Source: a bacterium | GTDB taxonomy: Bacteria; Patescibacteriota; Saccharimonadia; Saccharimonadales; UBA4665 | Length of the DNA: 35,077 nucleotides | Assembly: GCA_021851735.1 (NCBI GenBank) | Contig: JAJZCD010000001.1 | Span: 1 to 35,077 of the forward strand | Direction: 5' to 3' | The notes under the pieces: generated by a model | Told to the model about the DNA's origin: nothing | Databases searched by the model: none | Seen by the model: the letters and a program-made list of their open reading frames with translations, nothing else | Shown here: one piece after another, positions 4,246 to 8,306 of the stretch | Layout of the letters: the number at the start of each line of letters is the position of its first letter | Numbering within the stretch: the stretch's first letter is position 1 | Position numbers and translations under genes: made by a program

Positions 4246-4416
4246 TTACAAGTAATTTTTGGCGATTTTATAGGCTGCCCAGATACCGACTAGCGAGCCA
4301 ATTAGGCTGCCGAGTATGCTCCAGCCACCGAACCAGTTGCCATGGTCTGGCATCGCACCTAACCAGCTACCGACGGTACCGCCAATCGTTATTCCAATCC
4401 AGATTGCTGTTTTCAT
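4246..4416 (-). CDS. Small Gly-rich two-TM membrane protein (56 aa)
   Basis: Internal ATG at 4416 gives 'MKTAIWIGITIGGTVGSWLGAMPDHGNWFGGWSILGSLIGSLVGIWAAYKIAKNYL', a plausible gly-zipper membrane protein. The longer ORF N-terminus looks non-coding. Confidence 0.55.
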   Translation of the reverse strand: MKTAIWIGITIGGTVGSWLGAMPDHGNWFGGWSILGSLIGSLVGIWAAYKIAKNYL

Positions 4417-4688
4417 ACTGCGTATTGTACCAGCAGTGGCGTGGTTTATCTCTTCAGGTTGCCTTGAGGCGTAACATTGCATGTTTGTTCCGCGAACTAG
4501 CCAGTAGTGTCCGCCTAAATATCTATTGATCACGGCAATGCAAGTGTTGTGTCGTAGTGACCATCCCAAAATGCGCCTCGCTCGTCAGATGTTCGATTCA
4601 GGTCTTGGCGGCGGTATACGCGGGATAAGTATAAGAGCTATGATGCATTGTAAGGTTTTTTACTTTAATACAATTTTATGCAAAAGTA

Positions 4689-4717
4689 TTGACATAATGG
4701 AATGTTTTTGCTAGAAT
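4689..4717 (+). promoter_or_regulatory. Near-consensus sigma70 promoter for a structured ncRNA
   Basis: TTGACA (4689-4694), 17-nt spacer, TAGAAT (4712-4717). Confidence 0.8.
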
Positions 4718-4723
4718 AGCAAC

Positions 4724-5153
4724 CTGTAAGTCGTGGAAACACCACTTACGTACCTTATATCCCCCATTCTAACATTTGTTAGATTGTTTTAGAGCTAAAG
4801 ATAAGTTGTTACCCTCCACTTCTCTCTTGAGGCTTCCACAGAATAGTGCACACTCAGATAATTCGTTTATTGGAATCACACTACTCTGTGGAAGTCTCAT
4901 ACCGGCATTGCCGGGCTCTAAAACAAACTAACCCCTTTAACGAGAAGTTTACAGCCTTACGAGACTGTAAATGTCCCGTGAGCGAGTCTAAATGATTCCC
5001 GCCTCAAAAGTGGGAGACACACATCATTAGAATATAGATGCTGATGTTTCGCTTCCGCGGTGGGTTGAAGGGTGGAGGGAGATAAGCTATCTCGGCTTAT
5101 CTCCATAAAAAGACCTGCGAGCGGTGCCCACCCCCTCTCGCAGGTCTTTTTAT
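4724..5153 (+). ncRNA. Large structured non-coding RNA of unassigned class (~430 nt)
   Basis: Lies between a strong promoter and an intrinsic terminator, with no convincing ORF. Helices: 4726-4731/4744-4749 (with inner GUG-GAAA-CAC); 4768-4773/4778-4783; 4784-4795/4915-4926 (12 bp perfect); 4829-4848/4879-4898 (19 of 20 pair); 4902-4906/4910-4914; 4948-4954/4965-4971; 4987-4996/5023-5031 with inner 4997-5002/5010-5015; 5078-5087/5095-5104. Pseudoknot candidate 4812-4819/5072-5079. Confidence 0.75.
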
Positions 5154-5156
5154 ATA
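5107..5156 (+). terminator. Rho-independent terminator of the structured ncRNA
   Basis: AAAAAGACCTGCGAG (5107-5121) / CTCGCAGGTCTTTTT (5137-5151), 15-bp stem ending in a U-run. Confidence 0.85.
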
Positions 5157-5187: not shown

Positions 5188-5823
5188 CTATAAAAAGCTG
5201 CGGGTTTCGGCGGTAAATGGTGCCCCAAAGACGTACTCGCTTAATATGGCATTAACCTCGCGTATGCAGGCTGGCAACTTTTCCTGTTCGGTTTTAGTAA
5301 AATTTTGTAACACGAAATCTGCTGTATCCATTTGTTCTGGTGTTTTGGGACCGATGCCAACGCGAACACGAGCGTAGTCTTCATTAATGTGCTTGCTAAT
5401 GCTTTTTATGCCGTTGTTACCTGCGGAGCTGCCGCCAACACGTAGGCGAATCTGACCGAAGTTGACATCAAGATCGTCGTGTACGACCACGGTCTGCGTA
5501 TTATTAAGTTTATAAAAGTGCTGCACTGCCTGTACCGCTTCACCGCTGAGATTCATAAATGTCTGCGGTTTACATAAAATCACACGTGTGTCACTTAGTG
5601 TAGCTTGGGTAAGTGCACACCTGAGGTCTTTTTTGTTTGTCCATGGTTCAAAGTCGTTTTTACGAGCGAGCATGTCCAGGCACATAAATCCAACGTTGTG
5701 TCGATTACCGGCGTATTCTTCTCCGGGATTACCTAACCCTACGATAAGTAAGTTTTTGTGTAAACTAAGGGTGCTGTAGTGCAGCGGGTTACTCATTTGT
5801 GGTCGTTTTGCAAATAATGCCAT
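5188..5823 (-). CDS. pth: Peptidyl-tRNA hydrolase
   Basis: 'LLIVGLGNPGEEYAGNRHNVGFMCLDMLA', 'KPQTFMNLSGEAV', 'VVHDDLDVNFGQIRLRVGGSSAGNNGIKSI'. Confidence 0.96.
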   Translation of the reverse strand: MALFAKRPQMSNPLHYSTLSLHKNLLIVGLGNPGEEYAGNRHNVGFMCLDMLARKNDFEPWTNKKDLRCALTQATLSDTRVILCKPQTFMNLSGEAVQAVQHFYKLNNTQTVVVHDDLDVNFGQIRLRVGGSSAGNNGIKSISKHINEDYARVRVGIGPKTPEQMDTADFVLQNFTKTEQEKLPACIREVNAILSEYVFGAPFTAETRSFL

Positions 5824-7568: not shown

Positions 7569-8306
7569 TTATACCTTTCTAATGGCGCCAGGTTGTAGCC
7601 CGTCAAGTCGATACGGTCCAAACTGTGTGCGGTGAAGTGTTGATACGGTGTAGCCAAGGTCGGCAAAGGTGCGACGGATTTGACGATTACGTCCTTCTGA
7701 CATCTGAATTTCGTAAAGATTAGGTGGGCAATGACCATCCTCTGATTTATAGTTTCTGATCTGGCCTGTATGCGTCAGACTGTTGAATTGCCTCTTGTCT
7801 GGGACAAGCTGATAACGACTAATTATGAATTTACTGATACCATCTTCGAGCATAATGCCGTGGTCAGTTATCATCTGCTGATGGAGCGGCTGCAGCGGCT
7901 TATCGAGAGACACCTCATATACTTTTACTTTTTGTCTGCTTGGATGGGTCAGTTCCTGGGCGAGTTGGCCATCATTGGTGAGCACTAGCAACCCTGATGA
8001 ATCTTTATCGAGACGGCCTACAGGGTTCAGTTGCTGATATGTTTGAGGCAGTAGGTTATATATGGTTTTACTTCCCTGTCCGTCTCGGCTAACGACATAG
8101 CCTCGTGGTTTGTTGAGTATAACAGTGGTGGTGTTTGTTGCGGGCGTTACCAATCTGTTGTCAAGGGCAACAATGTCTGAATCGGTAACGTCTGTGCCGT
8201 GCCTGGCAGTATGGTTGTTCACCGTAACACGACCAGCGGCTATAGCCTCATCCGCTTTTCGGCGTGATAGCATGGTACTCGCGGCAAGGTATTTATTGAG
8301 GCGCAT
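7569..8306 (-). CDS. RsuA/RluB-family rRNA pseudouridine synthase with S4 domain
   Basis: 'MRLNKYLAASTMLSRRKADEAIAAGRVTVN' (S4), 'LNPVGRLDKDSSGLLVLTNDG', 'MSEGRNRQIRRTFADLGYTV'. Confidence 0.93.
   Translation of the reverse strand: MRLNKYLAASTMLSRRKADEAIAAGRVTVNNHTARHGTDVTDSDIVALDNRLVTPATNTTTVILNKPRGYVVSRDGQGSKTIYNLLPQTYQQLNPVGRLDKDSSGLLVLTNDGQLAQELTHPSRQKVKVYEVSLDKPLQPLHQQMITDHGIMLEDGISKFIISRYQLVPDKRQFNSLTHTGQIRNYKSEDGHCPPNLYEIQMSEGRNRQIRRTFADLGYTVSTLHRTQFGPYRLDGLQPGAIRKV

Follow-up and report, generated by a model that had tools for sequence, protein, structure and literature searches.

A new family of structured noncoding RNA encoded beside pth and dprA in the class Saccharimonadia

Gene organization and genomic setting

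Within the window, the whole 35,077-nucleotide stretch of a Saccharimonadales genome analysed here (contig JAJZCD010000001.1), positions 4689-5156 constitute, judging from their sequence, an independent noncoding RNA gene that has a promoter and a terminator of its own. The sigma70-type promoter lies on the + strand (4689-4717), with TTGACA at 4689-4694 and TAGAAT at 4712-4717 separated by a 17-nt spacer; it was present with at least 9 of 12 matches in all 157 homologous loci tested, 151 of which also have the spacing of 17. The predicted transcript (4720-5156, +) is about 430 nt long and is supported as a structured RNA by its folding energy, its homologs and the G-U bias of their pairings. 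It ends in an intrinsic terminator hairpin (5107-5151, +), whose 15-bp arms (5107-5121 and 5137-5151) enclose a loop with the invariant motif GCCCACCC (5126-5133). The CCCACCC of this loop was found in all 159 alignment rows and a T-run terminator in 143 of 153 homologous loci. The hairpin is near-symmetric and may end transcription of pth as well. The promoter, the terminator and a 12-bp long-range helix had been located at the same coordinates by an earlier note on this DNA, which had also described the 430 nt between the signals as lacking a convincing open reading frame; indeed, no credible one was found within 4689-5156. The minimum free energy of this segment was -171.7 kcal/mol, compared with -106.8 ± 5.6 kcal/mol for dinucleotide shuffles (z = -11.6). 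The reverse complement reaches an equally good fold, so that free energy alone cannot fix the strand; the RNA was assigned to the + strand because G-U is far commoner than A-C at paired columns of the homolog alignments (97 to 6 and 185 to 15). Judged by its promoter, the RNA may be abundant.

The flanking genes, recognized by sequence rather than by profile search, are those we take to be dprA, pth, topA and der. At 93 of 128 loci the RNA and dprA point away from each other, while pth, followed by der, lies beyond the terminator on the opposite strand; in the window pth occupies 5188-5823 and does not overlap the RNA. The topA-pth interval given in the earlier note is correct for the window, but pth and dprA are the usual neighbours: here dprA is missing from the locus and topA comes next, with the RNA kept. 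Other loci likewise have lost dprA or gained inserted genes while the RNA remains. Persistence in the absence of dprA, together with the strand and a dedicated promoter in 157 of 157 loci, favours an RNA that probably acts in trans, as the note had also supposed. A small glycine-rich membrane-type ORF (4246-4569, - strand) was observed in the window where relatives have dprA, an arrangement seen in 3 of 128 loci.

Secondary structure and covariation

All structural elements described here lie on the + strand. The 5' domain opens with hairpin P1 (GUAAGU/ACUUAC, 4726-4749), variable but present in homologs, and a C-rich joining strand (4750-4768) conserved in the alignments, followed by hairpin P2 (CUAAC/GUUAG, 4769-4782), in which 99.3% of alignment cells are paired. 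The strands of P3 (4784-4795 and 4915-4926) form the exact 12-bp long-range helix; it encloses hairpin P4 (AAGU/ACUU, 4803-4821), with double changes in two of four pairs and a near-invariant loop UGUUACCCUCC (4807-4817), whose CCUCC core also occurs in diverged copies. The 20-position helix stressed in the earlier note (4829-4848/4879-4898) is real, but it belongs to a long apical hairpin (4829-4898) in a variable arm that is absent or different in relatives. It represents a local insertion of this species, because the stretch from the ACCCUCC loop to CUAAC measures 108 nt in the window versus 27-65 nt in nearly all relatives. Downstream lies a second copy of CUAAC (4928-4932; CUAAC or CUAAU in 157 of 159 loci), and then the 5' strand of P5, CCCUUUAAC (4933-4941), whose 3' strand is GUUGAAGGG (5064-5072); both strands show compensatory changes. 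P6 pairs AGCGA (4981-4985) with UCGCU (5049-5053), and its variants AGUGA/UCACU and AGCAA/UUGCU were read by eye in homologs. It encloses hairpin P7 (GUC-UAAAU-GAU, 4986-4996) with co-varying pair types, hairpin P8 (4997-5015) with many pair types per column, and the P9 hairpin region (5016-5048), where columns show GC47/AU24, AU52/GC16, UA25/CG15/AU9 and other pair types. Finally, a G-rich strand, GGUGGG (5059-5064), is complementary to CCCACC of the terminator loop.

The covariation check proposed in the earlier note revealed strong covariation in homologs. Among 86 sequences, 11 of the 12 pairs of P3 showed double changes. The three helices modelled together, P3 and P4 among them, accumulated 193 double-change cells, compared with 43.7 ± 4.9 after shuffling, and 96.9% of their cells were paired versus at most 47.3% with the partner slid, in an alignment that was fitted to the structure and hence leans towards the modelled helices. 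Replacement of a whole helix is plain by eye: UUGUUUUAGAGC/GCUCUAAAACAA in the window corresponds to UUGUGCGCAAUG/CAUUGCGUGCAUA in locus L116. P5 gave 16 double-change cells versus 0.9 shuffled, a count biased by the choice of its 3' strand for complementarity; for this reason, clean single examples of compensated P5 (L072, L091, L104, L117, L079, L098 and L110) outweigh the count. For P7, P8 and P9, covariation was seen in a MAFFT alignment of 79 sequences that had not been fitted to the structure. Taken together, the covariation of P3, P5, P7, P8 and P9 proves the predicted fold. For GGUGGG/CCCACC, the invariance of the loop (159/159) leaves no covariation to observe; the GGUGGG strand is kept in most loci, displaced in L079 and L110 and absent from the outgroup form, and its spacing to the terminator loop is near-fixed (20-23 nt in most short forms).

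The GUUAG strand at 4778-4782 is contested by two CUAAC copies, one in the 4769-4782 region and the other at 4928-4932. Both copies are kept in most loci (the 5' copy was scored missing in 10, some perhaps through limits of the script), and each of the two pairings can be found intact at some loci that have lost the other. A conformational switch between the two pairings is possible.

Comparison with Rfam models

No family among the 4227 of Rfam 15 scored above its gathering cut-off, whether the window, the eight diverse homologs or the two highly diverged copies were searched, and a relaxed-score search of the window region returned only sub-threshold noise. The earlier note had seen no marks of RNase P RNA, tmRNA, SRP RNA or 6S RNA here, and the model searches agree. 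RNase P RNA (RF00010; G000:C52:3354-3824, 228 bits) and tmRNA (RF00023; G000:C13:3631-4023, 64 bits) are encoded by separate genes of the window's genome; at the RNA locus neither RF00010 nor the tmRNA model gave a match, ARAGORN found no tmRNA, the 6S RNA model RF00013 was unmatched, and RF00169 and RF01854 did not identify an SRP RNA. A weak 6S RNA candidate (27.6 bits, below cut-off) was noticed at G000:C52:5179-5323, some 1.4 kb away from the gene for RNase P RNA. As a separate observation, the SRP appears to have been lost altogether in a sample of 61 Saccharimonadia genomes (PF02978 0/61, no SRP RNA above cut-off).

Distribution and diverged copies

A plain DNA search, which on its own revealed pieces of the RNA within the genus and family only, detected them in 85 of the 93 family genomes. 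The promoter, the terminator and several segments that hardly vary are shared by the aligned homologs. Covariance model R1, covering the 5' domain, matched 205 of 393 class genomes, with every listed match falling in the window's order; among 380 genomes sampled from the phylum it matched 23, which likewise all belong to that order. The broader model R2, built from 86 sequences, recovered the RNA in 246 of 393 Saccharimonadales genomes, which represent 134 of the order's 156 genera. Among named records, nearly all that contain the exact motif pair come from Saccharibacteria, CP011211 and oral taxa 350 and 352 being examples.

The absence from genera g46 and g49 and from another order of the class, suggested by R1 and R2, proved false. 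Three model-negative genomes were inspected at the pth-dprA position (a 20-kb stretch of G110 of g46, nearly all of G124 of g49 and the whole of G094), and a diverged copy was found in each. In G124 and G110, R2 gave only matches with E values of 0.28 and 0.86, respectively, but these lie exactly beside dprA, and the copies retain the promoter, compensated P5 helices (CCCUUUGAC/GUCGAAGGG and CCCUCUAAC/GUUAGAGGG) and the terminator loop GAUGCCCACCC. The R2 search of G094, which belongs to another order of the class, gave no match; its pth-dprA gap contains, on the expected strand, a compact version, roughly 170 nt long and with three hairpins (folding z = -9.9), comprising P3 (GCCUAGUUAC/GUAACUGGGC), an unpaired ACCCUCC, P5 (CCCUUUAAUUC/GAAUUGAAGGG) and a CCCACCC terminator loop, and lacking the GGUGGG strand. 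RNA sizes range from about 250 to 570 nt in the order, with about 170 nt in the outgroup. A descriptor combining a C-rich loop in a T-tailed hairpin with a 9-bp P5 gave three matches, each at the RNA locus, in 1.99 Mb of genome sequence. The same descriptor recovered 143 of 159 known loci and matched nowhere in block-shuffled sequence totalling 19.9 Mb; having been written after the three diverged copies were seen, it gauges specificity and not discovery. No copy was found in 400 kb, half of the genome, of G432 from another class.

The RNA was probably inherited vertically between pth and dprA in Saccharimonadia, and the locus almost certainly represents a real, new structured RNA family, as its sequence, fold and homologs indicate. 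Of the description "undescribed or lineage-restricted" in the earlier note, the first part agrees with the lack of an Rfam match, but the RNA is not confined to one narrow lineage, extending as it does to another order of the class. Three records deserve separate mention. What appears as a second copy in G176 looks like one locus broken across the ends of two contigs (L065 and L084). The viral contig IMGVR_UViG_3300049064_000004 carries at its edge (8095-8172) a full copy with promoter and terminator adjoining phage-type genes, possibly a provirus-host junction. The contig SEAL01000024.1, filed as Chloroflexi bacterium PMG_070, has the RNA beside dprA and is probably a mis-binned Saccharibacterial contig.

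Proposed mode of action and alternative explanations

Every form seen retains two C-rich motifs that are left unpaired: CCUCC of the 5' domain and CCCACCC of the terminator loop. The reading we prefer, with a probability of roughly 0.45, is that of a trans-acting structural RNA that would present these loops to a partner. It would be transcribed alone, probably constitutively as far as the promoter indicates, with the long-range helices P3 and P5 and the terminator hairpin holding CCUCC and CCCACCC unpaired. The loops would be presented in trans to an RNA-binding protein or to one specific G-rich RNA, rather than to ribosome-binding sites at large. In Saccharimonadales, GGUGGG beside P5 could fold back on the terminator loop, which would give either a pseudoknot or an off state. 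The loops were probably kept for more than this pseudoknot, because CCCUCC and CCCACCC persist in the outgroup form that lacks GGUGGG; as a counter-reading to presentation, they could serve as tertiary-contact elements only.

Exposed C-rich loops also characterize Staphylococcus aureus RNAIII (loops 7, 13 and 14; PMC2837412), and two such loops, one of them in the terminator hairpin and the other with a CCUCC core resembling an anti-SD sequence, could point to a global regulator that pairs with the Shine-Dalgarno regions of many mRNAs and blocks their translation. This is unlikely in view of 385 gene starts taken from the window and loci L125-L203, a coarse test in which starts were called mechanically from ORFs. 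Complements of the loops were not enriched near start codons: a 6-bp complement occurred in the SD window at 3.4% of starts for the P4 loop and 2.3% for the terminator loop, no higher than in distal windows or with shuffled loops, and GGAGG occurred at 5 of 385 starts. An apparent excess of complements to the 5' C-rich strand upstream of starts (11.4% versus 4.4%) was due to TATA words, the -10 boxes of leaderless genes. Many genes appear to lack a leader: the commonest upstream hexamers are TATAAT-like words placed a short way ahead of ATG, and SD words are rare. The set of covarying helices, the near-invariant segments left unpaired, the possible pseudoknot and the two mutually exclusive GUUAG pairings would suit a trans-acting ribozyme or the core of a large RNP with an activity of a kind not recognised; we hold this to be unlikely, given that no catalytic signature was recognised and that the outgroup form has only about 170 nt and three hairpins.

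An RNA polymerase regulator standing in for 6S or Ms1 RNA would fit a single-copy, lineage-wide gene with a strong promoter in a genome whose only 6S-like match is below cut-off; nevertheless, with RF00013 unmatched at the locus, several domains in place of one rod with a central bubble, and that weak candidate located elsewhere, this seems improbable. An element that regulates or terminates the dprA-topA or the pth-der operon in cis is equally improbable. The conserved place, divergent from dprA and convergent with pth, and a near-palindromic terminator that could serve pth speak for it, whereas the RNA has its own promoter, leaves pth free of overlap, stands by its G-U bias on the strand opposite both gene pairs and stays while its neighbours change. 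A very diverged SRP RNA is suggested by the failure to find one in the class (RF00169 above cut-off in 0 of 61 genomes, RF01854 in 0 of 41) and is extremely improbable: the Ffh M domain (PF02978) was absent from all 61 genomes while 14 of 14 controls were positive, so that no partner exists. An SRP substitute was rejected on this ground; SRP loss is already published for Parcubacteria (PMC4508563).

Significance and comparison with known RNAs

Among CPR lineages, the Saccharibacteria are the best studied, yet a search of the open-access literature yielded neither a paper on this kind of RNA nor any lineage-specific structured RNA of the group, and just two ncRNAs are listed for one complete oral genome (PMC8830319). 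The novelty claimed is that of the RNA family and not of its biochemistry. The RNA is a promising candidate for a housekeeping-type RNA of a major symbiotic lineage, kept by nearly all Saccharibacteria examined beside the same genes, and a conserved RNA with a strong promoter in reduced genomes likely matters for fitness. A wider reading, more doubtful than the preferred one, makes it a core RNA or RNP that serves the whole class of these CPR episymbionts, and perhaps Patescibacteria more widely, in a biochemical capacity new to bacteria; fast divergence would hide it from searches, and gene order would betray it. Saccharibacteria have been transformed and Tn-mutagenised (PMC10633639), which makes the RNA directly accessible to deletion.

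Like the 6S, RNase P, tmRNA and SRP RNAs, it is encoded by a housekeeping-type gene with its own promoter and terminator, although it is unmatched by their models. With the raiA-motif RNA, or ModT, of Bacillota and Actinomycetota (PMC11706538) it shares a chromosomal location, conservation across a very large lineage, a transcript of its own (predicted in the present case) and an unsolved mechanism, but the helices and neighbours differ, Rfam gives no match and the RNA is so far confined to Saccharimonadia. The ornate OLE, ROOL and GOLLD RNAs (PMC12286853) are likewise large and densely covarying, with loop-loop contacts of a kind that the present RNA may have, whereas the present RNA measures about 250-570 nt in the order and about 170 nt in the outgroup, matches none of their models and occupies a core chromosomal locus not linked to phages or extremophiles. 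S. aureus RNAIII also exposes C-rich loops, including the terminator loop (PMC2837412), but shows no homology, while SD-type targets are unsupported for the present RNA and it is conserved across a class. The resemblance to ModT, OLE, ROOL and GOLLD is only that of a lineage-wide structured RNA, and that to RNAIII lies only in the C-rich loops.
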